Positions 38,396 through 58,889 of a stretch of DNA of 64,000 nt are shown here, in pieces. Each line of letters begins with the position of its first letter. Position 1 is the first letter of the stretch. Source of the DNA: Streptomyces sp. NBC_01775 (GTDB lineage: Bacteria; Actinomycetota; Actinomycetes; Streptomycetales; Streptomycetaceae); assembly GCF_035917675.1 (NCBI RefSeq), contig NZ_CP109104.1:1798001-1862000 (forward strand), read 5' to 3'. The notes beneath the pieces were generated by a model that did not search any database, had not been told where the DNA came from, and saw only the letters and a list, made by a program, of their open reading frames with translations. Position numbers and translations under genes: made by a program.

Positions 38396-38412
38396 TGTGA
38401 ACTAAGTCCACG
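38396..38412. promoter_or_regulatory. Operator-like motif, copy 1 (pPIWI-RE / kinase 2)
   Basis: TGTGAACTAAGTCCACG, a near-palindrome around AACTNAGT, lies between the divergent Cas4-like gene (89 bases to its start) and kinase 2 (73 bases to its start). It matches the other copies at 42184, 44454 and 58873. A shared operator or activator site is inferred; no -10 box is obvious in either direction. Confidence 0.6.
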
Positions 38413-38484
38413 CACACCACATCCCCCGAGTTCTTCACGCTACTCTGGTGCGCGAGACGATGCAGGCGTACGAAGGGGTGCGCG

Positions 38485-39969
38485 GTGAGCGCAGAGGAAC
38501 ACAGGCCCGGCGCAAGGGAACTGGTCGACGGGCGGTACGAGTTGGACACGCCCCTGGGCCGGGGCGGCATGGCTCAGGTATGGCAGGCTTGTGAGGTGTC
38601 CACCGGCCGGAACGTGGCGGTCAAGTTCCTCCGCCTGGACTCAGAGGACCTGCGCCGACTCGACACGCGCGAGCTGCGGGCCGAGCTCGCTGTGCTTTAT
38701 GCGCGGTTCCGGCGCGAGGCCGAGCTCCTCAGCAGCCTCGACCATTCGGGCATCCCGGAGCTGTACGGACATGGCCTGCACCGGGACATGCCGTACATCG
38801 CCATGCGCTTGGTGACCGGTGTGACGCTGCGGTCCTTCCTCGACGAGCACAACACCCTCCCTCTCGCCCCGGCGATCGCCGTCGCCGCACAGGCGGCGGA
38901 GGCGCTAGCCTGCGCGCACACCCACCCTGTCGTGCACCGGGACCTCAAACCGCAGAACATCATGATCGACGACGAAGGGGTGGTCACCCTCATCGACTTC
39001 GGCATCGCCAAGCCGCTGCGCGCCGACGCGACGCGGTACACGGCGCACGGCTCGACACTGGGCAGCCGCGGATACCAGGCACCCGAGCAGATCATGGAGA
39101 AGGAACCCACTGCCCGGACGGACATATATTCCTTCGGCTGTGTCGTCTACGAACTCCTCGCAGGCCGCCCACCGTTCCCGCTCGGCGAGGACTCCGGCCT
39201 GATCGGCAAGCACCTCTATGAGGACCCTCCCCCGCCGGGCGTGTACACCGCTGGGGTCCCCGAGGCCCTTGACGATCTGGTACTGCGCATGCTCGACAAG
39301 GTCCCCGAGCGGCGCCCCGCCATCGGCGAAGTCCTGGACGTCTTCGCACCGTTCTGCCCCCGGCCGGGTGATCCGGAACCTCGCCCCCGCACCCACCCGG
39401 ACCCTACCGCCCCCTGCCGGCGACCGAAGGACCGATCGGTGGCCTCCCGGCCGGTCGCCGCCGCGCCTCCGTCTCCTTCCAGTCCGGGCCAGGACGAATG
39501 GCTCGACGTTCGCGTGGTGCAACAGCTTTGCGCAACGGCCGAGCAGGAGCTCTATGAGGGGGAGCCGGGCGAGGCCACCCGCAGCCTCCAGGGGATGACG
39601 GGGCGCGTCCGCCAAGAATGGGGATCCCGTCGTCCTCTCGTTCGCCGCGTGTGGCGGCTGGCGGCGGACGGGCTCCGGTTGGCCGGTGACTTCGGGGCCG
39701 CGGCACCTCTCTACCAGGACATCGACAGCGGTCTCCTGCACGGTGAAGGGCCGGCCGAGCGGGCCGAGCGGGCTGTCCTCCGGCTACGGGTCGCGGAGTG
39801 CCGGCTCGCCTTCGGCGAGATGGCGGCGGCGATCGAGGCGGTCCAGGCGGCAGGGCATACGGCCGCTGGCCTGCCCGCGCCGTACGCGACGCGGGTGGAG
39901 GACGAACGACGCGCTGTGGACGAGCAGATCACGGCCCGGCTCGCCGACCCCGAAAGCACGGACCTGTGA
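38485..39969 (+). CDS. Cytosolic Ser/Thr protein kinase with C-terminal helical repeats (kinase 2)
   Basis: A 494-residue Hanks-type kinase from GTG at 38485 with GAAGGGG nine bases upstream. Glycine loop GRGGMAQVW (25-33), K47 in VAVKFL, HRDLKPQN at 151-158, DFG at 171-173 and YQAPEQ are all present, so activity is expected. A Pro-rich linker (about 300-340) precedes a TPR-like tail (QQLCATAEQELYEGEPGEAT, DFGAAAPLYQDID). No transmembrane segment is present. Architecture and size parallel kinase 1 at 9716. It is divergent from the pPIWI-RE operon across about 180 bases that hold one operator-like motif, so the two are likely co-regulated. Phosphorylation of a defence component, as in PglW or Stk2, is inference. 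Confidence 0.93.
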   Translation: MSAEEHRPGARELVDGRYELDTPLGRGGMAQVWQACEVSTGRNVAVKFLRLDSEDLRRLDTRELRAELAVLYARFRREAELLSSLDHSGIPELYGHGLHRDMPYIAMRLVTGVTLRSFLDEHNTLPLAPAIAVAAQAAEALACAHTHPVVHRDLKPQNIMIDDEGVVTLIDFGIAKPLRADATRYTAHGSTLGSRGYQAPEQIMEKEPTARTDIYSFGCVVYELLAGRPPFPLGEDSGLIGKHLYEDPPPPGVYTAGVPEALDDLVLRMLDKVPERRPAIGEVLDVFAPFCPRPGDPEPRPRTHPDPTAPCRRPKDRSVASRPVAAAPPSPSSPGQDEWLDVRVVQQLCATAEQELYEGEPGEATRSLQGMTGRVRQEWGSRRPLVRRVWRLAADGLRLAGDFGAAAPLYQDIDSGLLHGEGPAERAERAVLRLRVAECRLAFGEMAAAIEAVQAAGHTAAGLPAPYATRVEDERRAVDEQITARLADPESTDL

Positions 39970-40052
39970 GGGGCGGGCGCGCGTTGCGGGGGCGCGCGAT
40001 GCATGGAGCCCGGCACGCGAACGCGGACAAGTGACGAAAGAGCCCGGCGCTT

Positions 40053-42083
40053 CTACTCCCCGCCCGACAGCCGTCCGGCCGCCAGCTCGTCACCGAGCCC
40101 GCGGGCAAGTCCCCTCCCGAGAGCGTGTGTTCGAAGCACCATCTGCTCGAACTCGGCCAGTTCCCGGAACGCCGCCCCGTAACGGCGCTGCTCGACGAGG
40201 GGCACCTGGCGGACCTGTAGTCGCCGGACGTCGATCCGGGAGGAGCTCGTCGTGTGCGTTCCGGCCTGCCTGGCGTTGGCCGGGGCCCGCAGTGAGCCGG
40301 CCAGGAACCAGGCGTCGAGCTGATCGGGGTGCACCCGTACGGCGTGCAATTGAGGGCCGAGTACCGTCGGCTGCCCCTCATGGACCCAGGCCGAGAACGC
40401 CCGTGCCACTCCGACGACCACGACCTCTCCGGGTTCGGCCACCACGGCCCCGGATGCCCGCACGTCCTCGGGCGCGAGCCAGCCGCGGGACTCGCCCTCC
40501 GTGTACAGGTCGGGGACGGTGAGCAGGGGGACTCCGTCGCCGGGCGGCTGCCCTTCGCCCACTGTTCCCTCGGGTGGTTGCTGACCGCTGCGGAGAGTGA
40601 GGGCCCCGGCACGGGTGAGTTCGGCGACTGTGGTCGCCGTCGGCGTCTCCGTCGCATCGGCCGTGAGGTTGAGCGCCGCGAGCCGGCCGCAGGACGTGCC
40701 CAGGTCGGTGACCAGTTTCCCGAACTCCTGCCAGGATTTCGCCAGTCGGAGTGCTGTGTCCGAGGAGGACGGGGCGATATGGCGCCCCGGAGTGAGGTCG
40801 ACCTCGTGGTCGAGAAGGTCGATCACGGGCACTCTGGTCACGTAGTCGGAGGCCCCGGCCTCGGACTCCCCCCGCGAGTCCCGCGAGTCCGGCGCAGCGA
40901 AGGCGTCGCGCACGAACGACCCGATCGCCCCCCAGTCCGGGGTGGCCTCGCGGCCCGGGGTACGCGGGAAGCGGGAAGCCGCGTCAGCCAACAGGAGCCT
41001 CTCTCCAGCCCGCGGTCCTTCCTTCGGAACGGGGGTTCTCAGAACCCACAGATGCAACGAGACGCTGTGCGGCGCCGCGCACCCCGGTGGCAGCGCGACG
41101 ACGGCCCGCAGGTGTCCGGTGCGCAACAGCGACCCCCGGATGCGCCGGCCCGCCTTCCGGGCCGCCACCGCGGGGGGCAGCAGCAGTACGGCGCTCCCGC
41201 CAGGCCGCAGCCGAGCCAGGCAGTGCTGGACCCAGGCGAGTTCGGGTTCGGTGCGCGGGGGCAGACCGTGGCTCCAACGTGCATCGGTGGCCAGCTCCTC
41301 GTATCCCCAGTCGCGTTCGTTGAAGGGGGGGTTGCACAGAACGATGTCGGCGGCGGTGCCGGCGAAGGGGTCGGTACGCAGGGAGTCGGCGGACCGTACA
41401 TCGATCAGTGGCGCAGCCGCTTCACGGGCCGCGAATCCGAGCCGTAGGCGCACGTCCGTCAGCGCGGAAAGGACCGGGTCGCGGTCACCGCCGATCAGGG
41501 CCGCAGCGCCCGCCACGGCAGAAAGCAGATGGCCGGTGCCGCAGGCCGGGTCCATGACCGTCACACCGCCTCCGTCGTCCAGCGGTCGTGTGGCCGCACG
41601 CAGGGCCAGGTCCGCCATGAGGGTGGCCAGCGGCGCCGGGGTCGTCACGATCTGCCGCACATGGAGGTCGAGCCATCGGCGCAGCAGGAACTCGAAGGTC
41701 TCCGTTCCCCCGTCGCGCCGCCCGGCCTCCACCGCCTTCTCGATCAGACAGCGCGCGTCATCCGGAAACCCACCGCCCGCTGCCCCGAGCCCAGCGAGCC
41801 GACGCCCCACTTCCGTGATGGCGAACCCGGTCTCGTCACGTCCTCCGAGCGCCTCGAACTGGGGCCAGAGCCACTCCCGTTCCGCGGACTCCTTGAACTT
41901 TCCGTTCTCGCGGAGCCATGCCTCGACCTCGCCCATGGAGAATTGCGGACTCACATCCGTGCCGCTGATCCGCTCCGGGAACGTGGCATGACGCCGCCGC
42001 CAGTTGCTCACCGCGGCCCGCCCCACACCCGCGAGGCGGGCGATTTCGGCCAAGGTCACCGGTACAACACGCGACGACGACAT
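40053..42083 (-). CDS. N6-adenine DNA methyltransferase (HsdM-like, with HTH and target-recognition region)
   Basis: About 676 residues from ATG at 42083 with GGGAG six bases upstream; a GTG lies at 42089. The N-terminus is a helix-turn-helix (TLAEIARLAGVGRAAVSNWR), followed by a helical domain. SAM motif I is MDPACGTGHLL near 178-188 and the catalytic motif IV is NPPF near 249. The C-terminal 200 residues (GQQPPEGTVGEGQ, LTVPDLYTEGES, AWFLAGSLRAPANARQA, SSRIDVRRLQVRQVPL) resemble half of a type I S subunit, so it may recognise its own target, as type IIG or HsdM-S fusions do. No nuclease domain is present and no HsdR lies beside it. It has its own upstream operator-like motif. Self-DNA marking for the neighbouring nucleases is inferred. 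Confidence 0.88.
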   Translation of the reverse strand: MSSSRVVPVTLAEIARLAGVGRAAVSNWRRRHATFPERISGTDVSPQFSMGEVEAWLRENGKFKESAEREWLWPQFEALGGRDETGFAITEVGRRLAGLGAAGGGFPDDARCLIEKAVEAGRRDGGTETFEFLLRRWLDLHVRQIVTTPAPLATLMADLALRAATRPLDDGGGVTVMDPACGTGHLLSAVAGAAALIGGDRDPVLSALTDVRLRLGFAAREAAAPLIDVRSADSLRTDPFAGTAADIVLCNPPFNERDWGYEELATDARWSHGLPPRTEPELAWVQHCLARLRPGGSAVLLLPPAVAARKAGRRIRGSLLRTGHLRAVVALPPGCAAPHSVSLHLWVLRTPVPKEGPRAGERLLLADAASRFPRTPGREATPDWGAIGSFVRDAFAAPDSRDSRGESEAGASDYVTRVPVIDLLDHEVDLTPGRHIAPSSSDTALRLAKSWQEFGKLVTDLGTSCGRLAALNLTADATETPTATTVAELTRAGALTLRSGQQPPEGTVGEGQPPGDGVPLLTVPDLYTEGESRGWLAPEDVRASGAVVAEPGEVVVVGVARAFSAWVHEGQPTVLGPQLHAVRVHPDQLDAWFLAGSLRAPANARQAGTHTTSSSRIDVRRLQVRQVPLVEQRRYGAAFRELAEFEQMVLRTHALGRGLARGLGDELAAGRLSGGE

Positions 42084-42183
42084 CTGCACTCCCAGGCACT
42101 TTCGATCGAGCGAGGACCATCCCTCTGCGAGGGGCTCAGGATCAAGCCACCCATGCCCTCCGATGCCGTCAGGCTACTATGCC

Positions 42184-42200
42184 CATTGACTTTGTTCACA
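42184..42200. promoter_or_regulatory. Operator-like motif, copy 2 (methylase)
   Basis: CATTGACTTTGTTCACA on the plus strand, that is TGTGAACAAAGTCAATG toward the methylase whose start is about 100 bases away. A TAGCCT sequence 18 bases after TGTGAA (minus strand) could be a -10 element. It differs from copy 4 at only two positions. Confidence 0.6.
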
Positions 42201-42262
42201 GGCCGTACACGACGGTCGCGCACCCCCTCCACCCCTACGGCCCTTACTGTGCCGCCCCGCGC

Positions 42263-44416
42263 TCACCTCACTCCGTCGAGGAACTCGCTCGGCCGACCGC
42301 TGTATGACGCGTAGAGCCCCTCCCTGGCCCGGGTGCAGGCCACGAACAGCAGACACCGCTCGGCCGCCAGGTCCGTCGCATGCTGCAACCGGTCCACTCC
42401 GAGCGGCGTCACCGCGGCCTGGAGCGGAAAGGCGGAGGCCGTCACCCCGGCCACGGCCACACAACGGAACTCCAGCCCCTTGAGACTGTGCAGGCTCGAC
42501 ACCCGGACCCCCACCGTGTCCTCCGGGTCACCGTCCTTCACCTGTACGACCGGCAGCCCGGCCTCGTCGAGCCGGTCTCCCAGGCGCGCGGTCCGGGTGT
42601 GGAAGCGGGCGCAGACCGCGATCTCGGAAGGGGCTACACCTGCCTCCACCCAGTCGAGGACGCGCCGGACCACGGCCTCGTCCTCAGCCTGCTCCGTGCC
42701 GTGCCCCTCGCACACGGGCTGCGCCCCGTGCAGCAGCGAGCGGTATCCGGCCAGTGAGTCCCGGTCGTCCCCGGTCAGGTCGGCGACCGGTTCCCCGTCG
42801 AGCAGCGCCCGGGACCAGCGCAGGATCTCCTCCGTGGAACGGTAGTTGAGCCGCAGCCGGGCCCCGCGCCCGGTGACGGAGATCCCGAGTGAGCGCAGCG
42901 AGACCCGCGCGTCGTAGATCCGCTGGTGCGGGTCGCCGGTGACGAAGAGGTCGTCAGGACCCTCCGGGACCAGGGCCCGGAGCAGACGCCACTGTGCGGG
43001 GTGCAGGTCCTGCGCCTCATCCACCACCACATGGTCGTACGCGGGGCCCTCGCCGGGCTTGTCCCGCAGCAGCCGTGCGGCCTGGGCGCACAGCTGGAGC
43101 CAGGTGCAGGCCCGGTCGCGGTCGAGCTCGTCCTCGAACCGCGCCACGGCTTGCCATATGCGCTCCCGCTGCGCCCGCCCGAGGGCACTGCCGCGTCCGC
43201 GCCGCAGACAGTCGCGGTACTCGCTGTGAGCGCGCAGGTCCTGCGCCAGGACGACGTGCCGGTACTCCTGGGCGAGAAAGGCGTCGTTCCAAGGTAGTTC
43301 GAGCGTGCGGGCCAGTCGCTGCCAGCGGAGCCGCTCGTCCTTGTCGCCGAGGGCCGTGCCGGGATTGCCGCTCAGCTTCCGCACGGTGCGCTGGGCGAGC
43401 GCGTCGACGGTGGTGACGGTGACGCGGCCGAGGAGCGCCCGGTCGTGGTCGAGAAGGAGCGCGAGCCCGCTGCGCAGCGAACGGGCAAGTGCGCCGGTGT
43501 ACGTCGTGAGCAGGATGCGGGAGTCGGGCGAGCGGCCGAGGAGGTGCTTGACCCGGTGCAGGGCGACGACGGTCTTCCCGGTGCCGGGCCCTCCGGTGAT
43601 CTGGGCGGGGCCCGCGTAGCTGGGCCGGTAGGCGATGCGCCGCTGGGCGGGGTGAAGAAAGACTCGCCAGGCGTCGAAGGGCTTGGCGAGGATGTCGGCG
43701 AGTTCCTCAGGCCCTGTGACCAGGGCGATCCGGCTTCGGGTGCGACCGACGGCGGTGGCCAGCTCGCCCTGTGCCGTAGCCCCGTCGTCGGACGTGCTCT
43801 CCCGGGCGGTGACGGCGACCAGGTCGCGGTAGATGTCTTCGGCCTTGAACCCCTCGGCGAGCAGCCAGAGCGCCTCGAACTGGTCCTCGGGCATCAGCGA
43901 GCCGAATGCCTCCAGCTGCGCTTTGCCGGTGATGGTGCGGGCGGCGCGAAGGGTGACGTCGTCGACGCCGAGATGCCCGAGCACGCTGTCCGACCAGGAG
44001 GCGAACAGGAGTTGAGGCGCGGCCTCCGCCTCCTGCGCGAAGAGCGGGGTGACCTGTTCCATGGCGGTCAGATCGCGCACTTCGAGGCAACGCGTCACGG
44101 CATTGACCGTGTAGAGCCGGCGCTTGGCCCAGGAGTACGCCTTGTCGTGGGAGACCACGTGCACGAAGACGAAGACGTCGCTGCCGTCGTCGGGGGCGAG
44201 CAGTACGATGCGCAGCCCGTCGTCGACGCGGATGGTACGCATACGCGGGTCGCGCGAGCCGACCACCGACTCCAGGTGAAGCCCCTTGTCCGCGTGGAGC
44301 TGATGGGTGGTCAACTGCTGAAACTTCCCCATCGCCTTGTGGACCCGGGCGCGGGCCGGCTTGTCGAGCCGGTCCACGCCCTCCCAGAAGGTGTTGGTGA
44401 TCGCGATCTGCGGCAT
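42263..44416 (-). CDS. UvrD/Rep-family helicase with RelE/ParE-like N-terminal domain
   Basis: A 717-residue protein from ATG at 44416, which has a perfect GAAGGAG site; an upstream TTG at 44434 is less likely. The first 100 residues (ITNTFWEGVDRLDKPARARV, HLESVVGSRDPRMRTIRVDD, VFVFVHVVSHDKAYSWAKRR) have the pattern of the RelE/ParE toxin fold. A 150-residue helical spacer follows. The superfamily 1 helicase has Walker A TGGPGTGKTVV near 272, DEAQD near 462, LRLNYRSTEEI near 525 and a C-terminal VACTRAREGLY motif VI, so the motor looks complete. It is immediately upstream of the methylase on the same strand but has its own operator-like motif. Whether the N-terminus is an RNase or only a structural module cannot be told. 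Confidence 0.88.
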   Translation of the reverse strand: MPQIAITNTFWEGVDRLDKPARARVHKAMGKFQQLTTHQLHADKGLHLESVVGSRDPRMRTIRVDDGLRIVLLAPDDGSDVFVFVHVVSHDKAYSWAKRRLYTVNAVTRCLEVRDLTAMEQVTPLFAQEAEAAPQLLFASWSDSVLGHLGVDDVTLRAARTITGKAQLEAFGSLMPEDQFEALWLLAEGFKAEDIYRDLVAVTARESTSDDGATAQGELATAVGRTRSRIALVTGPEELADILAKPFDAWRVFLHPAQRRIAYRPSYAGPAQITGGPGTGKTVVALHRVKHLLGRSPDSRILLTTYTGALARSLRSGLALLLDHDRALLGRVTVTTVDALAQRTVRKLSGNPGTALGDKDERLRWQRLARTLELPWNDAFLAQEYRHVVLAQDLRAHSEYRDCLRRGRGSALGRAQRERIWQAVARFEDELDRDRACTWLQLCAQAARLLRDKPGEGPAYDHVVVDEAQDLHPAQWRLLRALVPEGPDDLFVTGDPHQRIYDARVSLRSLGISVTGRGARLRLNYRSTEEILRWSRALLDGEPVADLTGDDRDSLAGYRSLLHGAQPVCEGHGTEQAEDEAVVRRVLDWVEAGVAPSEIAVCARFHTRTARLGDRLDEAGLPVVQVKDGDPEDTVGVRVSSLHSLKGLEFRCVAVAGVTASAFPLQAAVTPLGVDRLQHATDLAAERCLLFVACTRAREGLYASYSGRPSEFLDGVR

Positions 44417-44453
44417 GCCCCACTCCTTCGCCAAGGTCCGCCATCAAGGCGGG

Positions 44454-44470
44454 CGTTGACTCAGTTTACG
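44454..44470. promoter_or_regulatory. Operator-like motif, copy 3 (RelE-UvrD helicase)
   Basis: CGTTGACTCAGTTTACG; reading toward the helicase it is CGTAAACTGAGTCAACG, ending 38 bases before the ATG at 44416. It shares AACTGAGTCAA with copy 4. The closeness to the start suggests it overlaps the promoter or transcript start. Confidence 0.6.
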
Positions 44471-44487: not shown

Positions 44488-44937
44488 TCACCGACGGCAC
44501 ATGGCCCACACGGTCTTCCCGCCCGGATGGTGCGCCCGCACTCCCCAGCCGTCCGCCAGTGCCTCGACGAGGAACAGTCCGCGCCCCGACTCGCCCCCCG
44601 CGTCCGGACACTTCACCGGCTGCTGGCCCCTATGGGCGTCGGTGACCTCTACCCATAGCTCCGTCACGTCGAGCGTGACGACGAGCCGCGCGTCACGGCC
44701 GCGCACCTGGCCGTGCAGGGCGGCGTTCGCCGCCAGCTCGGCGATGAGGAGGGACGCGGTGCCCGCGAGATCGCCGTCGCCGGACTCCTCCGGTGAAAGC
44801 TGATCCGCGAGCCACCTCTCGGCGGCGTGCCGCGCGCCATGGGCGCCGAGCCGGGTGGTGCGGAAGAGGCTGCTGAAATGCATGTTGCGCGCGGCCGTGC
44901 GGGGTTCACGGGTAGCGGGCACAGATTCCTGGTTCAC
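44488..44937 (-). CDS. RsbW-like HATPase (anti-sigma factor/ATP-binding protein)
   Basis: A 149-residue protein starting with GTG at 44937 (ATG at 44883 is an alternative). It has the short GHKL ATPase fold of Streptomyces anti-sigma-like proteins: LIAELAANAALHG (N box with Asn), LWVEVTDAHRGQQPV (the G1-type D-x-H variant), and GESGRGLFLVEALADGWGVR (G2 box). It probably acts as a serine kinase or anti-sigma regulator of the RsbW type. It is divergent from the Xre regulator and DUF397 gene, the usual genomic arrangement of this trio in Streptomyces. Confidence 0.88.
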   Translation of the reverse strand: MNQESVPATREPRTAARNMHFSSLFRTTRLGAHGARHAAERWLADQLSPEESGDGDLAGTASLLIAELAANAALHGQVRGRDARLVVTLDVTELWVEVTDAHRGQQPVKCPDAGGESGRGLFLVEALADGWGVRAHHPGGKTVWAMCRR

Positions 44938-45125
44938 CTCACCGAGCGTGACGGAACGACTCTATGGTGGCGAGTAGCCCATCCAGTACGGAGGGTGACT
45001 GTCCGGTCATGCAGGCAGGCTGTCCGGGCGGACGGGGATGTTGTACGGGATGACGACCGTGACCTCGGTCGACGGTGGTCGGTAGTCGGACCGGTGACAA
45101 GCACAGAGCGGGTGGTGGGTGGGCG

Positions 45126-45989
45126 ATGGCGGCACGACCGGAGTGGGACACCGAGGACCCGGCGGGCTCGGAGGAGGTGGCGGACCTGTTCCGGGCCATC
45201 GGCCGACAGATCAAGGCCGCACGCGAGCGGGCCGGGATGAGCCAGAAGGAACTGGGCAAGCGGACCGGGTACGGCGAGGAGCAGATCTCGTCCATGGAAC
45301 GGGGACGCCGCACACCGCAGCCGGAGTTCTTGGTGGCGGTAGATGAACTGCTGAACTGCGGTGGGTTGTTGGCGGTCGCGGCGGAGGATGTGGAGCGTGC
45401 GAAGACACGGCGGCGGGTGCGGCATCCGGAATGGTTCCGGGACTATGCGAAGTTGGAGACGAAGGCGGTCGAGCTGTGCTTCTACAGCACGCTGACAGTG
45501 CCGGGACTTTTGCAGACGGAGGCGTACGCGCGGACGACGTTCGCGGTACGGCAGCCGCTGCTCGACGAGGAGACCATCGAGCAACGGGTAGCCGCGAGGC
45601 TGGAACGGCAGAGCATCTTGTCGAACTGGCCTCCGCCCATGGTGACTGCGGTGATCGAGGAGTCCGTACTCCACCGCCTGATCGGTGGCACGGACGTGCA
45701 GCGCGGACAGCTGAAGCATCTGCTGGAGCTTGCCGGTCTACGCAACGTGTCCATCCAGGTGCTGCCGATGAGTTGCCAGGATCATGCGGGCATGGACGGC
45801 CCATTCATCCTGCTCACGCCCAAGGGGCGGCCACAGCTGGCGTATATGGAAGTTCAGCACGTCAGCAAGCTGGTCACAGATCCGGACGAGGTCCGTATCC
45901 TGGCGGCGCGATACGGCAATATCAGAAGCCAGGCATGCACTCCACACGAGTCCCTGGACCTGATCGAGAGGATGCTGGGAGAACGATGA
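45126..45989 (+). CDS. Xre-family regulator with DUF5753
   Basis: A 287-residue protein from ATG at 45126; a GTG at 45075 would add 17 poorly conserved residues. The HTH occupies about 21-75 (IGRQIKAARERAGMSQKELG, YGEEQISSMERGRRTP). The remainder is DUF5753 (PEWFRDYAKLETKAVELCFY, TVPGLLQTEAYARTTF, VIEESVLHRLIGG, VSIQVLPMSCQDHAGMDGPF), the usual ligand or partner domain of this abundant Streptomyces family. Its stop overlaps the DUF397 start by ATGA. It could regulate neighbouring defence genes, but the family usually controls development and specialised metabolism. Confidence 0.93.
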   Translation: MAARPEWDTEDPAGSEEVADLFRAIGRQIKAARERAGMSQKELGKRTGYGEEQISSMERGRRTPQPEFLVAVDELLNCGGLLAVAAEDVERAKTRRRVRHPEWFRDYAKLETKAVELCFYSTLTVPGLLQTEAYARTTFAVRQPLLDEETIEQRVAARLERQSILSNWPPPMVTAVIEESVLHRLIGGTDVQRGQLKHLLELAGLRNVSIQVLPMSCQDHAGMDGPFILLTPKGRPQLAYMEVQHVSKLVTDPDEVRILAARYGNIRSQACTPHESLDLIERMLGER

Positions 45990-50339: not shown

Positions 50340-53323
50340 GCGTCCGCTCCCAGCTGGATCGTGGCGGCCGGGCGGTAGAGGAAGACGCCGAGGATGTCCG
50401 GGTCGCCCTGCGGGGTGACCTTGAGACCTGCCAGGCGGGCCTTGGAGGCGCTGCGGACGCGGTGGTGCGACGCTTCGAGGTCCTTCGCGGCGGCGGCGGA
50501 CCGGATGCGGAGTTCACCCATCAGGTCCGCGTCCAGGGCGGCGAGAATCCCGGTGATGTGGTCGGTGGCGAACGCCGGATCGGAGTTGCCGGTGGCGCGG
50601 GCGTCGAGGAGCGCCAGGGCCTCTTCCTCCGAGAGCCACTGGGGGGATTCGGGCCTGCCGTGGAAGGCGACCACCCGGGCGTCCTCGGCGAGTTGGGGGT
50701 GCACCCCGCCCGCGCGGGTCGGCAGGTTCAGCTGGAAGCGGTGCCGGACGAGCAGCATGGTGGTGGGCCGCGTGACGGCGGTCGTGCGGACCACGCCGCA
50801 GCGGCGGGCCGGGCGCTGCCAGGTTGGAAACTTCTCGTCCAGGGCGGCGTCGAGGACGAAACGCGCCGTGGCGGCCACCACCGGGTCGGTGCGGGTGAGG
50901 GCAGCCTCGCCGGGCGGGGCGCTCGGTGCGTCGTGGAAGACGACCGGTCGGGGGTGGCGGGGGCCGAGCGCGGCGGTGACGGTGTCCCGCAGCCCCTGTG
51001 GCAGCGCTTCGGTGTGTGCGGTGAAGCCACCCTGCTTGCGGTCGGCGGGCACGCCGCGCAGGGCACCGAGCGCGCGGCGGGTGAAGTCCCTGACCTCCTC
51101 GCCGGTGCCGAGCGCGGCGCGGATCTCGGCGACTTCGGCGGCCACTTCCTCCTTCTTGATCGCGTTCTGGGCGTAGCGGGACCGGGATGCCTTCTCGTTC
51201 TCCGCAGAGGACTCCCAGGCGATCTCCAACTGCTCCGCGGCCTGCGCCTGCTCCCTTTCGAAGAGTCCCTCCTGCTCGAAGGCGGGCGTCTCGCCGTGCA
51301 GGATCAGTTCCTCGAAGACCGCCTGCATGGCGCTCTCGGCCTGCTGCGGTACTGGGACGGAGATACCGGTGGCCCGGCGGATGTGCTCGTGCTTGCGCAG
51401 CAGCACCTTGAGGACGATCTCGTCGACGGGGTTGTCGGCGCCGTACAGGGTGAGCGCCTTGACGGTGTCGGTGCGTTGACCGAAGCGGTCCACGCGGCCT
51501 TCGCGCTGCTCGTGCCGGGTCGGGTTCCATGCCAGGTCGAAGTGGACGACGGCGTCGAAGGACTCCTGGAGGTTGACGCCCTCGGACAGACAGTCGGTCG
51601 CCACCAGGACGCGCCGCTCGGGCGCCGGGTCGCCGTTCTCGTCGGCACCGGTCAGTTCGGCGATCCGGGTGATGCGCATGTCGGGAGAGAGCTCGCTGGT
51701 GACCGAGGCGACGGCGACCTGGCGCTTGGCTCCCTTCTTGTTGAACGTCTTTTCCAGGTGCCCGGCCACGTAGTCGGAAGTCGCGATGTAACGGCAGAAC
51801 ACGATGGGCCGGTAGCCGTCATCCAGGAGATCGGTGACCGTCGCCACCAGCTTCTTCAGCTTGGTGTCGCGGGTGGGCCCGGCGAGCTTCTGGGCGGCCT
51901 CGGCCATGGCGATCAGGCGGGCCCGCTCCTCCTCGCCGATGGTGTCGCCCTCAGCGTCGTCCGCGACATCGGCGGTGTCTCCGGCCGTGTCCTCGGTGGC
52001 CTTCGGCAGGAGGGTGCCCGGGACCTCGTCCGCGGACTTCTCGGCGTCGCTGTCGGCCGGGTCGGACACCGTCTGCTGCCCGGTGCGGTCCGCCTCGTCG
52101 GGTGTGCCCGCCTCCTGGACGCCGGCGCGGGTGTGCAGGGAGCGGACGGCAGCCGCAGGCGAGGAGGACAGCGTGCGCAGCAGCGCCAGCGTCGACCACC
52201 AGCGCTGGCGCTGCTGGAGCGCGCCGTCGGCGGATCGTACGGTCTCCCGGGCGTACGCCAGGACCTCGCCGAGGAGCCTGCGGTAGTCGCGGTGCAAGGA
52301 GTAGGAGACCTCTGCGGAGTCCCGGGTGGACGGGAAGTGCGCGCCGTCCTGGAAGTCCTCGCGGATGTCGGCGCGGCGGCGCTGCACGAAGAACTCGGCG
52401 AGCAGTTTGCGACCCGCCACGGTGTCGAAGCTGACCGTGGCCAGCTGGGGATCGAGCAGCCCGAGCAGCCGGCGGAAGGGCTCTTCCTTTCCGCTGTGCG
52501 GGGTGGCGGTGACCAGGAGCAGATGCCGGGCGTCGTCGTCGGCGAGAGTGCGCAGCAGCCCGTACCGCTGCTGCGAGGTGCGGGTCGGCGTCCGGGCGGT
52601 CGAGTCCGCGACGCAGGTGTGTGCCTCGTCGGCGATCACCAGGCCGGGACAGTTGCGCAGGAAGTCCTCGCGGTGCCGGGGCGACTTGATGAAATCGGTG
52701 GACACGACGTACGTGCCGTCCGGACGGAACACCGACTTTCCGTACGGCGTCTCACGCTCCAGGCGGCCGATGGTGGCGGGCAGCACCAACTGGGCTTCGA
52801 TGCCGAACTTGTCGTGCAGCTCGGACCGCCACTGCTCGGCGAGCGCGGGCGAGCAGAGCACCACCAGTCCGTGGGCGTCGCCCTGGGCGAGCAGCTCGGC
52901 GGCGATCAGCCCCGCCTCGATCGTCTTGCCGATCCCCACGTCGTCGGCGATCAGCAGCCTCACCGTGTCCTGGCGCAGCGCCATCATGAGCGGCACGAGC
53001 TGGTACGGACGCGGATCCACCGCGATTGACGCCAGCGACCTGAAGGGTCCGGCCCCCGCCCGGAACCCGATACGCAGGGCGGTGCGCAACAGTCCTGCTG
53101 TGTGCTGGTCGCCCAGGTCGGAAGGCGTGGGCGGCGCGAACGTGGCGGGCACCACGGTCTCCAGGCCCGGTAGCACGCCCGCGATGTCGACGTCGGCTCC
53201 GCCCAGCGGACGCAGCACGAACAGCTCTGAGGTGGAGTCGGGCAGCACCACCCACTCGCGGCCCCGGGCGTGGACGAGGGAGCCGACGGCGTAGGGCGGA
53301 GCCGACTTGGCGGCGGTGGTCAT
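50336..53323 (-). CDS. SNF2/RapA-type helicase, DISARM-like DrmD
   Basis: About 995 residues from ATG at 53323, preceded by GGAAGG; the frame is open up to 53467 without coding character. The N-terminal block (YAVGSLVHARGREWVVLPD) and motif I LIADDVGIGKTIEAGLI (near 125), DEAH in VIADEAHTC (near 225) and motif VI QREGRVDRFGQR (near 605) are those of HepA/RapA-like SNF2 translocases, including DrmD of DISARM class 1. An acidic insertion lies around 440-480 (about 52000 on the map). The C-terminus is helical with no recognised nuclease. It is upstream of the methylase (ATGA overlap) and 160 bases downstream of the DUF1998 helicase. Confidence 0.9.
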   Translation of the reverse strand: MTTAAKSAPPYAVGSLVHARGREWVVLPDSTSELFVLRPLGGADVDIAGVLPGLETVVPATFAPPTPSDLGDQHTAGLLRTALRIGFRAGAGPFRSLASIAVDPRPYQLVPLMMALRQDTVRLLIADDVGIGKTIEAGLIAAELLAQGDAHGLVVLCSPALAEQWRSELHDKFGIEAQLVLPATIGRLERETPYGKSVFRPDGTYVVSTDFIKSPRHREDFLRNCPGLVIADEAHTCVADSTARTPTRTSQQRYGLLRTLADDDARHLLLVTATPHSGKEEPFRRLLGLLDPQLATVSFDTVAGRKLLAEFFVQRRRADIREDFQDGAHFPSTRDSAEVSYSLHRDYRRLLGEVLAYARETVRSADGALQQRQRWWSTLALLRTLSSSPAAAVRSLHTRAGVQEAGTPDEADRTGQQTVSDPADSDAEKSADEVPGTLLPKATEDTAGDTADVADDAEGDTIGEEERARLIAMAEAAQKLAGPTRDTKLKKLVATVTDLLDDGYRPIVFCRYIATSDYVAGHLEKTFNKKGAKRQVAVASVTSELSPDMRITRIAELTGADENGDPAPERRVLVATDCLSEGVNLQESFDAVVHFDLAWNPTRHEQREGRVDRFGQRTDTVKALTLYGADNPVDEIVLKVLLRKHEHIRRATGISVPVPQQAESAMQAVFEELILHGETPAFEQEGLFEREQAQAAEQLEIAWESSAENEKASRSRYAQNAIKKEEVAAEVAEIRAALGTGEEVRDFTRRALGALRGVPADRKQGGFTAHTEALPQGLRDTVTAALGPRHPRPVVFHDAPSAPPGEAALTRTDPVVAATARFVLDAALDEKFPTWQRPARRCGVVRTTAVTRPTTMLLVRHRFQLNLPTRAGGVHPQLAEDARVVAFHGRPESPQWLSEEEALALLDARATGNSDPAFATDHITGILAALDADLMGELRIRSAAAAKDLEASHHRVRSASKARLAGLKVTPQGDPDILGVFLYRPAATIQLGADA

Positions 53324-53437
53324 ACGGGCCTTCCGGGGCGGATGTCGTGGGCGGGAGACGGGGTGGAGCGGAACGGGGCGACAGACTGGGCCGGGCCACG
53401 GCGCGGCGGGACGGGCGCAGGCGACGGAAACGGCACC

Positions 53438-53477
53438 GCCCGGCAGGGTACGGACCAGAGCCCGCACCCTGCCCGGC
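53438..53477 (-). terminator. Hairpin after the DUF1998 helicase gene
   Basis: GCCCGGCAGGGT (53438-53449) can pair with ACCCTGCCCGGC (53466-53477) with one mismatch across a 16-base loop. It lies seven bases past the helicase stop, inside the 160-base gap before the SNF2 gene. It may attenuate read-through or stabilise a processed end and could lower expression of the downstream pair. Confidence 0.5.
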
Positions 53478-53483
53478 CCCGTT

Positions 53484-56400
53484 TCAGCGGCGCGCTTCGC
53501 CGAACACCTGAGGGTACTCGGCGACCTTCTTCGACCAGTCGTCGTCGTAGCGGATGCGGATCACGTCCCAGCCGATCTCCTTGAGCCGCTCGGCCGCCTC
53601 CTCGTCGCGGAGCGTGATGTCGGAGAGGTCGTGGTGCGGCCCGTCGACGAAGACCGCGACCGGCCCGAACCCCGTGTCGTACACGAAGTCCGGCTTGGAC
53701 AGCGCGGCGCTCACCTTGATCTGCTGATGGTCGGGGAGTCGGTGGCCGTGGGACCCGAGATAGTCGACAAAGCGCGCCTCCAGGCGGGAGTCGGCGCCCT
53801 CCTTGAGCGAGACGGCGTGTTCGTCCCGGGTCCGTCCCGGGGTGCTGTCGCCGACCGATCCGTCCGCGAATGCCTGGAGCAGCTCGCCCACCAGGCGACG
53901 GTCGATGGAGCGGTGATGGCGCTGGTTGCCGAAGGAGAGGAGGCAGTCGTAGCAGCCCTGCACGCAGGGGTCACCGTTGGTCTTCTCGTCGCCCCGGTCG
54001 CGGCCGTGCTGGTCGAAGTGGGCAATCTCCAGGGCCTTTCGGGCGGCACGAGCCAGCGCGTCGGACTCGGCCTGGAGGCGGCGCAGCACCCCCGCGCCGC
54101 CCTCGGCGCTCTCGATGAACAGCAGCCGTTCGCGCGGCCCCTCCCAAGGCGGCAGCTCCTCGGTGTCGAGCTCGGAGTCCTCCAGCTGGAACTCCGCCTC
54201 GATGCCCCGCTCCAGGGCGTACTGGAGGGTGACGGCGGTGTCCCGGTCGACCGGCTCCGCCAGCTTGACGACGAGGATGTTCCGGGTGTCCTGCACGTAC
54301 GGGATCACGGGAACCTTGCGGTTGGCCTTCTCCGCGTCCGCGAGGCCCTCCTGCTCCTCGGGGGTTTCCCGGCCGGGCCCCGCCCCGCCCGGCTTGGAGG
54401 TGGAGCCCGCGAGCCACTGTCCGCTCACCGGGTCCATCCAGAAACCGATCTCGCCCTTCGCGACGGACCGGCGGTAGCCCAGGTTGGTGAGCCGGACGGT
54501 GGCGCTGTCGCCATACGCGAGCTCCGCGAGGCTCTTACCGGAGATGTCCTGGGCCTTGGCCTGGAGCGAGCCGTCTCGACCGTCCTCGTGCCTCTTGAAC
54601 CGGTAGGAGATCTCCACCCGGTAGCCGGTGCGCTGGCGCTCCTCCTCGTCGGAGGAGATCCGGTCGCGGCGGTGGGTGAAAACGGTGTGCAGGTGCAACA
54701 GGCCGGTCCGCGCGTCGCCCAGGGTGCTGGTGCAGCCGGGACAGGTGTCCTCGCGGAGGTCCTCAGAGGACAGATATCCGCAGCGCCCGCAGACCTTGGC
54801 GCTCTCTGTGGTCAGTTCACCGGCGGTGTCCGGCGGAAGCTGCACACGGTCCACCTTGTAGCGGCTGCCCTCGTGGTAGATCAGTGCACCGGGACCGAAC
54901 TCGCGGATCGCGATGAACCGGGACCGTTGCAGGTAGTCGCCGTCGTAGCCCCGGCTGTTGCGACCAGTGCCCGGGATGAAGGCGGCGAGCGGCAGACGGG
55001 GGAAGGAATAGCCGGGCAGGAACCCCTCGGAGGCGAAATACCGGTAAGGGTAGAAGTCGGACATCACGGTGCGCTCGCCGCCCTGATCGTTGCGGAGCAG
55101 TCCGAGCTGGGCCTCGGCCTGGGCGCGGCGGCGCTTGGCCTGGTCCTTGGAGCGGCCGGTGGCGGTGCGGTTGAGGATGTTGTCGTGCTGGATCTCGCGT
55201 TCTTCCAGCGCCCGTTGGAAGAGGGTCGTCCAGCGCTCGGTGGCCTTGCGGAAGCTGCCCGGCGCGGTCTCGACGGTCTGCTCCAGCCACTGCTCGTGCC
55301 ACCAGGAGGTGGAGCGGAGGACATTGAGGCATCCGGCCAGCACCGTGCGGGCCCGGACCAGCGCGCGACGCTGGGCGTCACGGTTGTCGATCTGCTCGGC
55401 CACGGAGGGCAGCACGGTGAGCGAGGGGGTCTTGCCGTCGGAGTCGAGCAACTTGGTCATCGAGCGCCCGAGTTCCAGACCTGTCTCGGCGAGCCAGATG
55501 GCGTGGACGTGCGAGGCGAGCAGGTCCTCGTTGCCCAGATCCAGGCGCGGTGGCGCGACGGCTCCGGCGACCATCTGATCACGCCGGCCGAAGTAGTACT
55601 GGTCGTGGCTGTTGCCGGTCGCGCAGTACGTGGTGACGAGGGCGGGCTGGCCGCTGCGTCCGGCGCGGCCCGAGCGCTGTGCGTAATTGGCGGGTGTGGG
55701 CGGCACATTGCGCAGACTGACCGCGTTCAGGCTCTTGATGTCGACGCCGAGCTCCATCGTCGGCGAGCAGTACAGCAGCGGCAGCCGGGTACCGCGGCTG
55801 AACAGGTCCTCACGTTCCTGGCGCAGCTCCGGGTGGACCTGTGCGGTGTGTTCGGCGGCGTGCAGCCCGGCGAAGGTGGCGGCGATGTTCTGGTAGAGGC
55901 CCTTGAAGAACCCGTTGACCCGCGGGCCCCGTTCGTCGCGGTAGGTGCGGCGCAGCCGGTCCACCGCGCCGTGCTCGTCGTCGCGGGCGTGCCAGCGGAT
56001 CACCGTGTGATTGATCTGGTATCCGGGCTCCTCGCCCCTGCCCTGGGAGATCTCGGTCAGTACGCCCCCGCCCGCCAGGACGGTGAGGAGATCGCGGATC
56101 ACGTCCTGGGCCTCGTCGAGGGAGAGACCGTGGCCCCACTCGGGGAAGGTGGTGGGCTTGCGGACGTGGCGGCCGAAGGCGCCGCGACCCGTGAGGTTCA
56201 GCTCGCTGCGGCCACGGCCTGTGCGTCCCGGACGTCCCGCGCGGGGAACGGCGACACCGGGCGCGGGCGGCGCGGACTCGGTCTCGGCGACCGCCCAGGC
56301 GTCGTTGAGTTTGGCGGACTCCTTGCGCAGCTCGGCGAACTTGGCCTCGGTGAAGTACGGGGTGTCCACGGCCCGCTGGCGGCGCAGCTCGTCCATGAGG

Positions 56401-58766
56401 ATCTTGGACAGCTGCGCACGGACGGTGGGCGCAGCGCTCCGCAGCGGGCCTGCCGCGTCGTTCCACCGCTCTTCGTCTCCGGCGATCTCGTCCAGTCCCG
56501 CGTACTCCAGGCCGAGCAGACCGGTCTGCTCCAGGTTGGGCATGGTGACGCGCCAGCCACGCTCCAGGTCAAGGAAGAGCCGGTACTCGGCGATGGCGGC
56601 CAACGCTTCGAGGGTGGCCTCCGCCAGCGATTCCACCTCGGTCGGATTGGCCGCGTACTCGTGGCGGGACAGCCCCATCACCGCCACCACTTCCTCGCCG
56701 AGCCGCTTCCAGCGCAGCCCCTTGTCACCGGCAGCGGCCATCGCACGGTAGAGGGCGCCCCGCAGCTGGGTGACCATGACGAAATCGTTGAAGTGCCCCG
56801 ACTGCAGGCTGGCGTCCTGCCGGTTGTCGACGAAGGTGAGCAACTTCCGTGCGTCTGTGTCGAGTTCCGACTCGGGAAGGCTCTTGAGGTGACGCACGAT
56901 CGAGGCGCTGACGACCGAGGTGGCCGTGGAGCGCCCTTCCTGATCGAGGGTCATGAGCTTGGCGAAGTCCCGCTCCTTGACCTGTTCGTAGCCAACCCCG
57001 CACTCCAGGCAGAAGAGGAACGGAGCGGGCAGGTAGGCGGCGTACAGGCCGCCGTTCGTCCGGTCCCCGCCCGTACCGTCCGGACGCACCCATACCGGCT
57101 GCGGCGCCCGCTTCCGGCGGCTGGCGGTGAGCGCCGGTGCGCCCTTCTTCTCGTCGAAGGTGAGCCAGCTGTCCGGGAAGCGTCGCTGCTCGATGGCGTC
57201 CCCGACCTTCTCGGGCCAGGGGTTGACGGAGGAGATGTACAGGTAGCCCTGCTCGTCGTCCTCATCCTCGCGGGTACGGAACAGCACACCGCCGTCGTCG
57301 CGCTGTTCACGGGCCACCGTCAGGTACTCCTGCCCGCACTCACGGCAGAAGGAGAGCGGGAGCAGCAGCTTCTCGGGAGCGTTCGGGACGCGCTGCTGAT
57401 AGGTGCGGGTGATGTGGCGATCACGTTCCTGCTCCAGCGAGACGTAAACAGAACCGCCTTTGGACAGGAACTGGTGCAGCCGGAAGGCGAACAGCGGGCG
57501 GTCGCTCGCAGGGGGGCAGGCACGCGAACCCGCCTGGAGCGTGGTCCGAATACTCTCCGTGCAAGCGGTGTACCACTTTTCCTCGGGGTCGCTCTCCTCG
57601 ATATCGAAGGCTTCGGCGCGAAGGCGCCGGGCGGCGGCCTCGACGGTCACAGGCTCCGCGCGTACCAGCAGCCTGCTGCCGTCCTCGTCCTCGGTCTCGA
57701 CCAGCCCGAAGGCCCTCTCGATCCAGCGGGCCAACGCATCATCGGCAAGCTGCTCGTACTCCGTCGGCGGAGCGTTATTTCTTACGCACGCGGCGAGTTC
57801 GGCCGCCGTCGGATCAGTGTCGCTGGTGGCCCGTACGAGGGTCTCGCCGACGACATTCTCCGGCAAGATCTTCTTGTCGAAGAGGGTCGAGGCAACATCG
57901 GCAACGTCACGGCGGCGCGAGGCAGGGGTGCCGCCGGTGGCCATGGTGGCGGAGGTGCCGACGCACTGGAGGTCTGGTGACTCGCACGCCTCGCGCACCC
58001 GCCGCACCAGCAGGGCGACATCGGCGCCCTGCCGGCCACGGTAGGTGTGCAGCTCGTCGAGAACGAGGAAGCGCAGCCCCTTGGCGCGGCCGATGAGGTT
58101 CATCCGCTCTCCGGGGCGGGTGAGCATCAGCTCCAGCATCACGTAGTTGGTGAGCAGGATGTCCGGCGGCGAGGCGAGGACGGCGTCCTTGTCGGCCTGG
58201 CTCTCCTGGCCGGTGTAGCGGGCGTAGGTGACCGGCTCGTTCCTCTCGCCGTACCCGGCGGTCAGGAACTTCTTCAGCTCGCGCTCCTGGCTGTTGGCCA
58301 GGGCGTTCATGGGATAGACGATGATCGCCTTGATGCCGGGGGCCGCACCGGCCTCCTTGTCGCGCAGCACTCGGTCGACGATGGGCACGATGTAGCCGAG
58401 GCTCTTCCCGGAGCCGGTGCCGGTCGTCAGGACGAAGGAACACTTCGACCGCGCTGCCTCGATCGCTTCCCGCTGATGCTGATGGAAGCGGATGGGGCGG
58501 TCCGTGCCGTCCCGCTTCTCCTTGCCCGTCCGGAAGATCTTCGCGCACTCCGGGTGCAGCGGTCCGGAGTCGGCCGCGAGGTCGTCGACGGAACCGCCGG
58601 GCGCGAAACTCGGATTGAGGGACAGGTAGGGGTCGGGCCACTGGTCGCCGTCGGCAAGCGACTTCGACACCTTCTCGTCGATCCGCGGATCGTCGATCAC
58701 CACCGAACCGGAGGTGTACTCCTTGTAGTCCCGGATGAGCCGCCGATGCACCTCGAAGACGTCCAC
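53484..58766 (-). CDS. DEAD/DEAH helicase with DUF1998 and C-terminal VSR-like nuclease (DrmA/DrmB-like fusion)
   Basis: About 1760 residues if started at GTG 58766, which has GAGG five bases upstream; GTG at 58799 is the longest alternative. Motif I is LTTGTGSGKSLGY near 112-124, motif II DELHTYRG near 235, motif III GTSATMA, and motif VI YAQRSGRAGRSGQ near 1030, the YprA/Lhr-like pattern with DELH. Cys pairs follow (CGRCGYLSSEDLREDTCPGC, about 1320-1340). DUF1998 ends with FIESAEGGAGVL and CVQGCYDCLLSFGN (near 1550-1605). The last 100 residues carry KPDFVYDTGFGPVAVFVDGP, the VSR/DUF559 nuclease pattern. DISARM usually splits DrmA and DrmB and adds a PLD protein DrmC; here the helicase and DUF1998 parts are fused and a nuclease domain is appended. 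It is the first gene of the operon. Confidence 0.88.
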   Translation of the reverse strand: MDVFEVHRRLIRDYKEYTSGSVVIDDPRIDEKVSKSLADGDQWPDPYLSLNPSFAPGGSVDDLAADSGPLHPECAKIFRTGKEKRDGTDRPIRFHQHQREAIEAARSKCSFVLTTGTGSGKSLGYIVPIVDRVLRDKEAGAAPGIKAIIVYPMNALANSQERELKKFLTAGYGERNEPVTYARYTGQESQADKDAVLASPPDILLTNYVMLELMLTRPGERMNLIGRAKGLRFLVLDELHTYRGRQGADVALLVRRVREACESPDLQCVGTSATMATGGTPASRRRDVADVASTLFDKKILPENVVGETLVRATSDTDPTAAELAACVRNNAPPTEYEQLADDALARWIERAFGLVETEDEDGSRLLVRAEPVTVEAAARRLRAEAFDIEESDPEEKWYTACTESIRTTLQAGSRACPPASDRPLFAFRLHQFLSKGGSVYVSLEQERDRHITRTYQQRVPNAPEKLLLPLSFCRECGQEYLTVAREQRDDGGVLFRTREDEDDEQGYLYISSVNPWPEKVGDAIEQRRFPDSWLTFDEKKGAPALTASRRKRAPQPVWVRPDGTGGDRTNGGLYAAYLPAPFLFCLECGVGYEQVKERDFAKLMTLDQEGRSTATSVVSASIVRHLKSLPESELDTDARKLLTFVDNRQDASLQSGHFNDFVMVTQLRGALYRAMAAAGDKGLRWKRLGEEVVAVMGLSRHEYAANPTEVESLAEATLEALAAIAEYRLFLDLERGWRVTMPNLEQTGLLGLEYAGLDEIAGDEERWNDAAGPLRSAAPTVRAQLSKILMDELRRQRAVDTPYFTEAKFAELRKESAKLNDAWAVAETESAPPAPGVAVPRAGRPGRTGRGRSELNLTGRGAFGRHVRKPTTFPEWGHGLSLDEAQDVIRDLLTVLAGGGVLTEISQGRGEEPGYQINHTVIRWHARDDEHGAVDRLRRTYRDERGPRVNGFFKGLYQNIAATFAGLHAAEHTAQVHPELRQEREDLFSRGTRLPLLYCSPTMELGVDIKSLNAVSLRNVPPTPANYAQRSGRAGRSGQPALVTTYCATGNSHDQYYFGRRDQMVAGAVAPPRLDLGNEDLLASHVHAIWLAETGLELGRSMTKLLDSDGKTPSLTVLPSVAEQIDNRDAQRRALVRARTVLAGCLNVLRSTSWWHEQWLEQTVETAPGSFRKATERWTTLFQRALEEREIQHDNILNRTATGRSKDQAKRRRAQAEAQLGLLRNDQGGERTVMSDFYPYRYFASEGFLPGYSFPRLPLAAFIPGTGRNSRGYDGDYLQRSRFIAIREFGPGALIYHEGSRYKVDRVQLPPDTAGELTTESAKVCGRCGYLSSEDLREDTCPGCTSTLGDARTGLLHLHTVFTHRRDRISSDEEERQRTGYRVEISYRFKRHEDGRDGSLQAKAQDISGKSLAELAYGDSATVRLTNLGYRRSVAKGEIGFWMDPVSGQWLAGSTSKPGGAGPGRETPEEQEGLADAEKANRKVPVIPYVQDTRNILVVKLAEPVDRDTAVTLQYALERGIEAEFQLEDSELDTEELPPWEGPRERLLFIESAEGGAGVLRRLQAESDALARAARKALEIAHFDQHGRDRGDEKTNGDPCVQGCYDCLLSFGNQRHHRSIDRRLVGELLQAFADGSVGDSTPGRTRDEHAVSLKEGADSRLEARFVDYLGSHGHRLPDHQQIKVSAALSKPDFVYDTGFGPVAVFVDGPHHDLSDITLRDEEAAERLKEIGWDVIRIRYDDDWSKKVAEYPQVFGEARR

Positions 58767-58872
58767 GTGATCCTCACTCGCTCCCGTCACGGTCCGCACG
58801 TCACGCTAGTCGCCGGCCGACCATTGTGCGCCGTACTCGCATTGATCGATGACGCACATGAGACCATGCGAC

Positions 58873-58889
58873 TGTGAACTGAGTCAATG
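58873..58889. promoter_or_regulatory. Operator-like motif, copy 4 (DISARM-like operon / kinase 3)
   Basis: TGTGAACTGAGTCAATG lies between the divergent DUF1998-helicase gene (about 107 bases to its start) and kinase 3 (about 122 bases to its start). It is the best match to the four-copy consensus YGTRAACWRAGTCMAYG. Confidence 0.6.

Follow-up and report, generated by a model that had tools for sequence, protein, structure and literature searches.

We detected four copies of a 17-bp motif, YGTRAACWRAGTCMAYG, before separately transcribed defence genes and their kinases in Streptomyces sp. NBC_01775, within a stretch of 64,000 nucleotides (nt) of contig NZ_CP109104.1 (positions 1,798,001 to 1,862,000; hereafter the window, to whose first letter all coordinates refer). 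We propose that this motif, in its wider consensus form TGTGAACWNAGTCAAYG (59 sites), is probably the operator of the helix-turn-helix (HTH) methylase encoded at 40053-42089, in one autoregulated circuit over several defence systems. In our best reading, the HTH-methylase would be a regulator of an island regulon, autoregulated in the manner of M.SsoII, and probably a repressor. An earlier reading of the same DNA from its letters alone (the sequence-only reading) had already suggested a shared regulator for these promoters, naming the HTH of the methylase as one local candidate.

The motif itself is confirmed. All four copies are exact and stand where the sequence-only reading had placed them, and none is contained in a called gene, as it had also stated:

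38396-38412, plus strand: operator in the gap that separates the pPIWI-RE operon (minus strand) from kinase 2 (plus strand); TGTGAACTAAGTCCACG, exact match, 30.7 bits, with the same site at 18/18 close-clade pPIWI-RE operons.
42184-42200, minus strand: operator of the methylase gene; TGTGAACAAAGTCAATG, exact match, 35.0 bits, with at least 15 bits in 31/34 genus genomes.
44454-44470, minus strand: operator of the RelE-like/UvrD helicase gene; CGTAAACTGAGTCAACG, exact match, 25.2 bits, UvrD-alone class (n = 4).
58873-58889, plus strand: operator in the gap that separates the Druantia/DISARM-like operon (minus strand) from kinase 3 (plus strand); TGTGAACTGAGTCAATG, exact match, 34.4 bits, class of n = 7.

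In the host genome (9.34 Mb, searched with up to three mismatches), these are the only four exact places, with no place at one mismatch and six at two, and the relaxed core of the motif occurs at eight places. A palindrome with two mismatches 278 bp left of the window lies within a called gene (8.6 bits). Scored with a matrix built from 59 copies of relatives and the window, the window copies reach 25.2-35.0 bits, and the next-best window site 1.7 bits.

Across 295 Streptomyces genomes, the exact pattern YGTRAACWNAGTCMAYG was found at 64 places in 33 genomes, and the same pattern read backwards in none. Up to 20 kb were fetched round each of the 64 sites, genes were called with a simple codon-usage caller and the proteins were clustered. 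At 60 of the 64 sites, a called gene starts within 400 nt and faces away from the site. Many matches inside genes, to which the sequence-only reading had looked for evidence against its proposal, did not appear: three of the remaining four sites lie well inside genes and are unexplained (G084, G220, G239), while at the fourth (L096) the caller had over-extended the methylase, the alignment placing the site 86 nt before the methylase start. Four further sites overlap the edge of a called gene (L085, L089, L093, L098). Two duplicate copies (G279) and the three in-gene sites were taken out of the matrix set, leaving 59. As 11 of the 17 positions were set by the search pattern, their invariance in the 59 sites is by construction; where the pattern left a choice, position 1 was T in 56/59 and position 4 was G in 55/59. 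The unbiased tests are the gene-centred searches upstream of the methylase, drmA and pPIWI-RE genes.

A wider survey, in loci picked for the motif or the methylase, gave 139 sites scoring 15 bits or more. With genes identified via PADLOC, Pfam and NCBIfam, the main classes were sites before the methylase (49), between kinase 2 and the divergent pPIWI-RE operon (28), before drmA (10, of which seven have UvrD on the other side), between kinase 3 and a divergent Druantia-like helicase (7), between an MTES_1575-nuclease helicase and a divergent, uncharacterised gene that neighbours GmrSD (7), and before UvrD alone (4). Pairwise identity within the five classes compared was 81-95% for the motif versus 28-37% for the 60-nt flanks, a contrast that is partly built in, as the sites had been picked by score. 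Among the other gene upstreams in the same regions, 26/426 reach 15 bits, representing further variants inside islands, and 393 score below 5. The recurrence of the motif before orthologous pPIWI-RE, UvrD and Druantia-like operons elsewhere supports a common operator of separately transcribed defence genes and kinases, as the sequence-only reading had proposed. Under the operator of L068 (2042-5530), L087, L089 and relatives, we also observed a 280-residue gene paired with a GmrSD-type protein ending in an MGMT-like DNA-binding domain.

A protein search with the methylase gave matches in 215 of the 295 genomes, which are of two kinds. Full-length defence-type relatives occur in 34 genomes (best E <1e-120, a cut chosen after the list was seen, with the borderline G087, at 1.1e-124, assigned by the tree), and the rest are weaker, mostly to a paralog whose alignment begins near residue 115. 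The full-length methylase is present in all 30 genomes with promoter copies of the operator, versus none of the three with in-gene copies only (Fisher p 4.6e-37 for promoter copies, or 2.4e-33 with the three in-gene genomes counted against), an association that is partly built in, as many of the sites are the methylase's own promoter. The four other methylase genomes (G039, G087, G107, G214) carry operator variants before the methylase. In 10 of the 30 genomes (G003, G009, G022, G043, G085, G099, G117, G136, G156, G157), the forward site of the methylase itself is not an exact copy but a variant, and the methylase is still present; in G043, the exact copy stands reversed in the gap that holds this variant. 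In G279, the exact copies are found at other places, one of them upstream of a split methylase-like gene (L073). For the 54 sites that lie on one contig with the methylase (30 contigs, 29 genomes), the distance between the two never exceeds 47.6 kb, and this holds for all 24 exact sites on the ten contigs longer than 7 Mb.

The upstream regions of orthologous DISARM and pPIWI-RE operons were compared across genomes, covering 30 of 32 DrmA matches and 30 of 42 pPIWI-RE matches. Close-clade DrmA (60-100% identity, including one fragment in G289) has the operator upstream in 13/13 cases, at 25-34 bits and always in methylase genomes. The other DrmA genes, comprising five relatives of 61-63% identity (G110, G122, G227, G039, G015) and 12 distant ones, lack it in 17/17 cases, with nothing above 12.5 bits anywhere in the fetched loci; four of these 17 sit in methylase genomes, at other loci (G029, G039, G107, G117). 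In the closer pPIWI-RE clade (41-100% identity), the operator precedes the first gene in 18/18 cases, at 16.5-30.7 bits and again always in methylase genomes, and it precedes 0/12 distant pPIWI-RE genes (best 6.8 bits). The operator is thus conserved at the close-clade pPIWI-RE and drmA operons and missing from the other clades, which ties it to the pairing with the methylase and argues against its being intrinsic to DISARM or pPIWI-RE promoters.

The methylase gene carries the operator in its own promoter region, and its product starts with the DNA-binding part that we propose to recognise it:

40053-42089, minus strand: HTH, HsdM-like N6-adenine methylase and half-HsdS-like C-terminus, 678 residues, proposed regulator (Pfam N6_Mtase; co-occurrence; model with a predicted local distance difference test score, pLDDT, of 91.2; M and S subunit matches).
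41907-42065, minus strand: N-terminal winged HTH of the methylase, residues 9-61 (model secondary structure; 14-residue invariant run in 35 proteins; PADLOC mad1 match, E 1.8e-5).

The gene caller set an alternative start at 42059, which would truncate the HTH and seems less probable. In 31/34 genus genomes, the best forward site before the methylase reaches at least 15 bits and lies 45-126 nt from the start, and TAGTAGCCT directly follows the operator in 19 genus genomes. Among the defence-type loci of the GTDB set, which overlaps the genus set (e.g., L166/G256, L178/G035, L179/G116, L182/G289, L192/G034), 24/30 reach at least 15 bits, including loci of Nocardia, Umezawaea, Actinoplanes, Actinomadura and Streptacidiphilus. 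The paralog (L154-L160, L192-L241), common in Streptomyces, has nearly the same HTH stretch as the methylase and an operator of its own, TGTGAACCGAGTCAACA. The form TGTGAACCGAGTCAAC stands before the paralog in 31/50 GTDB loci, with variants in 13 and nothing clear in six, and all seven fetched genus loci were positive. TGTGAACCSAGTCAAC occurs in 154/295 genomes, singly in 150 of them (control 0), the match in G043 being the defence-type promoter; these counts are of matches whose individual positions were checked only in part. The defence type and the paralog form separate groups, with support of 100/100, in a tree built from 46 proteins; midpoint rooting makes the Streptacidiphilus protein (L187) basal on the paralog side.

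The HTH holds the longest stretch that does not vary among 35 proteins, AGVGRAAVSNWRRR (14 residues), and in a larger protein set a few members are one residue off in it (L174, L224, L227, L240, L241). The AlphaFold2 model (pLDDT 91.2; predicted template modelling score 0.80) shows a winged HTH (10-61) followed by an HsdM-like core, with a long helix (631-670) at the C-terminus, and as we read the model the HTH may be of the MerR/AlpA kind. Foldseek gave type I and related adenine methylases as best matches, and the profile of the methylase matched type I M subunits at 126-466 and the end of S subunits at 540-660, though the protein fails the NCBIfam hsdM cut-off (21.2 vs 242.75 bits). Loss of the aromatic residue of motif IV costs activity in such enzymes. 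The aromatic is kept in 28/34 genus defence-type members and lost (NPPS, NPPA, TPPS, YPPT, DPPS) in 6/34 of these, which keep the HTH, and in 7/30 GTDB defence-type members. The paralog has HPPF in 50/58 cases and is perhaps a non-catalytic autoregulator. The window methylase retains NPPF and may well methylate DNA.

Two predicted -10 boxes can be placed relative to the window operators:

42171-42176, minus strand: predicted -10 box of the methylase (TAGCCT), 7 nt past the operator; 31/49 methylase-class sites have TANNNT at the same distance.
38441-38446, plus strand: predicted -10 box of kinase 2 (TACTCT), 28 nt past the operator; 17/28 class members have TANNNT at the same distance.

At drmA sites, TANNNT lies 3-5 nt after the operator in 9/10 cases and, on the reverse side, 42-44 nt away in 8/10; all these offset counts come from related class members and are not independent. 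The sequence shows the operator, how it is conserved, where it stands in promoters and that it occurs together with the methylase, and from this we infer how the circuit could work. The HTH-methylase would bind the operator, probably via its N-terminal winged HTH and likely as a dimer. In the methylase and drmA promoters, the operator fills the predicted -35/-10 interval, so binding there should repress both genes, and repression of the other effector operons is probable. At the promoters of kinase 2 and of the UvrD genes divergent from drmA, the operator lies about 40-70 bp upstream of where transcription is predicted to begin, a position at which binding may be neutral or stimulatory. The expected outcome is an autoregulated circuit that coordinates several defence systems of the island, each transcribed separately. 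It is possible, though we consider it doubtful, that the HTH-methylase is also an infection sensor, in which unmodified phage DNA, loss of S-adenosylmethionine or phosphorylation by the co-regulated kinases would free the operators and switch on several unrelated systems together, and which in some lineages would have become a pure regulator after losing catalysis.

Besides the built-in part of the co-occurrence, several observations weigh against this assignment. The motif is asymmetric, being palindromic at 10/17 positions. The operators before the methylase are weaker variants in G087, G117 and G214, and among the remaining GTDB defence-type loci five have weaker variants and one (L180) has none. 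At the homologous position before a pPIWI-RE relative in a genome without the methylase (G078) stands a similar sequence of 6.8 bits, which may be a diverged operator. No consistent -10-like box was found on the pPIWI-RE side (at most 3/28), on the Druantia-like side (at most 2/7) or at UvrD alone (0/4); repression at these promoters therefore rests on inspection by eye, which suggests TTGACT/TGGACT on the reverse strand as their -35 element. Methylases with a degenerate motif IV often have weaker operators, with 5/12 distinct ones reaching at least 15 bits, which speaks against a simple story of regulator over enzyme. The operators of the paralog and the methylase differ at the centre and at the last base despite the near-identical HTH stretch, so this stretch is ruled out as the sole discriminator between them.

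That difference leaves some room for another regulator, either the local Xre-DUF5753 protein (45126-45989, plus strand), which the sequence-only reading had named as the other candidate, or a host factor, with the methylase as merely one target. Xre-DUF5753 proteins are DNA-binding (HTH_31, HTH_3) and the gene lies within the island. On the other hand, relatives of this protein were seen in the fetched regions of only 8/30 promoter-copy genomes, with no genome-wide Xre search made, versus 30/30 for the methylase; the operator stands before methylase genes in several genera, and the paralog has its own version before its own gene. We therefore regard control by another regulator as unlikely and disfavour the Xre protein, and the co-occurrence, the sites in the methylase's own promoter and the ortholog controls strongly favour the methylase HTH as the regulator candidate. 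The -35-like TTGACT/TGGACT on the reverse strand and the overlap of the motif with the predicted -35 region of several promoters would also fit a promoter element, such as the -35 region for a particular sigma factor. This is very improbable given that the offsets to the predicted -10 boxes vary by promoter (about 3-7, 28 and 42-44 nt) and that the motif is near-palindromic and missing from DISARM and pPIWI-RE relatives in methylase-free genomes. The HsdM-like and half-HsdS-like parts and the motif IV aromatic kept in most genus members would agree with the motif being the methylation target of the methylase, marking or gating promoters through their methylation state and not through HTH binding. 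We see little chance of this either, as the four exact and eight relaxed-core copies in the genome are too few for bulk modification, the aromatic is lost in 6/34 genus members that keep the HTH, and motif IV reads HPPF in most paralogs.

An operator bound by an HTH-methylase has precedents. M.SsoII and M.Ecl18kI bind through an N-terminal HTH to a 15-bp inverted repeat at the divergent promoters of their own system (PMC3695355; also PMC3978073, PMC6100179), inhibiting their own gene and activating the restriction gene, with catalysis dispensable (PMC3695355). Like M.SsoII, the protein studied here has an HTH fused N-terminally to a DNA methylase (winged HTH at about 10-61 before the HsdM-like domain) and an inverted-repeat operator in its own promoter region (at least 15 bits in 31/34 genus genomes, variants in the other three). 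Unlike these cytosine-5 type II enzymes with one restriction gene, it is an HsdM-like adenine methylase with a half-HsdS part, with predicted binding at several unrelated defence operons. Based on the N6_Mtase and type I M-subunit matches and the absence of a cytosine-5 domain, it would work like, but stand outside, the M.SsoII family. RptR represses a defence island as well as itself, and its operator is conserved alongside it across genomes; RptR is a 9-kDa single-domain protein binding a 6-bp palindrome at one operon promoter (PMC12255303), unlike the 678-residue methylase-like protein and the 17-bp operator in at least four promoters found here. The WYL regulators BrxR and CapW reportedly co-localise with defence systems (PMC9122589, PMC9122601), and no WYL domain was found among those window proteins that were scanned with Pfam. 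The protein also differs from restriction controller (C) proteins, which are separate small HTH proteins, in being a fusion without Pfam HTH_3, and the sole XRE protein found shows no link to the motif.

In the methylation-associated defence system (MADS), an HTH protein (mad1), an adenine methylase (mad2) and a kinase (mad6) reportedly belong together, in an eight-gene operon mad1-mad8. The window shows weak profile similarity to mad1, mad2 and mad6, with scores far below the cut-offs for MAD2 (22.8 of 720 bits) and MAD6 (139 and 141 of 460), and mad-type matches were limited to mad1-, mad2-, mad6- and weak mad8-like ones in separate transcription units. Unlike in MADS, the HTH and the methylase are fused here and paired with several systems. 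Methylases with a regulatory HTH and island repressors such as RptR are already known. In the literature searched, in which subscription journals are thinly covered, we found neither the operator strings nor a report of one operator or methylase-type regulator joining several unrelated defence operons.

Defence systems are counted singly, and their co-ordination within islands is largely open. Here, pPIWI-RE, DISARM, Druantia-like, GmrSD-linked and helicase genes are linked by one operator and one candidate regulator. Searches for the operator can reveal further members of the regulon, unknown genes among them, and the regulator is directly testable. For the methylase-like family, with relatives in 215/295 Streptomyces genomes, autoregulation and DNA binding are a likely role.

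The other genes next to the four operators are as follows:

28501-38331, minus strand: pPIWI-RE operon of four genes, encoding a PDDEXK nuclease, a restriction endonuclease, a DinG-like helicase and pPIWI (PADLOC Ppr models, Pfam pPIWI_RE domains).
38485-39969, plus strand: serine/threonine kinase 2, PD-T4-6/mad6-like (Pkinase, PADLOC).
42263-44416, minus strand: UvrD-like helicase with an N-terminal extension (UvrD-helicase, UvrD_C).
46215-58799, minus strand: three-gene operon, encoding a DrmMI/IIG-like methylase, a DpdE/DrmD-like helicase and a DruE-like helicase with an MZB domain (PADLOC, Pfam).
59011-59976, plus strand: serine/threonine kinase 3, PD-T4-6/mad6-like (Pkinase, PADLOC).

The sequence-only reading had labelled the third of these a RelE-UvrD helicase; Pfam bears out the UvrD part, and the RelE-like part was not confirmed. 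This gene probably starts at 44416, because MPQIAIT is conserved there in relatives, which would put the operator 38 nt upstream. In G279, the same neighbourhood occurs on three contigs (L072, L074, L075), with the operator before a UvrD-like start (MPQIAIT) and the full UvrD not called; these are perhaps repeated, truncated copies. Adjoining UvrD, the stretch 44488-46189 encodes an HATPase (minus), the Xre-DUF5753 protein and a small protein of 67 residues, which we take to be DUF397-like from its look, and related sets lie near operators in some other genomes.

The suggestion that the whole island is a single regulon is not supported, as not every operon has a site. In the matrix scan of the window, no operator-like site above 1.7 bits precedes the genes at 13541-27798, kinase 1 (9716-11302) or the genes at 60460-64000, a level to be read against the true variants in relatives, which score down to 2.6 bits. 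The degenerate copy that the sequence-only reading placed at 3996-4011, CGTAAAC-AC-GTCAACG, does consist of two good half-sites between called genes, with a spacer of 2 bp instead of 3 bp, and scores 20.4 bits versus 7.1 for the next 2-bp-spaced window site. Matches to the 2-bp-spaced pattern, mostly CGTGAACNNGTCCAYG, are scattered over 24/34 methylase-bearing genomes, counted without regard to gene context, and given these the status of the 3996 copy as an operator is unproven. As a class, 2-bp-spaced operators were rejected, 3996 being the only one within the window. The RHS operon proposed there was not confirmed, as 2816-3481 had no Pfam match and 3-2816 no PADLOC match. The gene at 13541-19576 (minus) encodes a protein of 2011 residues to which Pfam and PADLOC gave no match. 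The protein of 1972 residues encoded at 21880-27798 (minus), with no operator upstream, combines helicase parts of the DinG-like (typeIV_DinG) and DpdF-like kinds with a DEDDh match. At the right window edge, 62048-63946 (minus) encodes a protein with NACHT and FGE-sulfatase domains.
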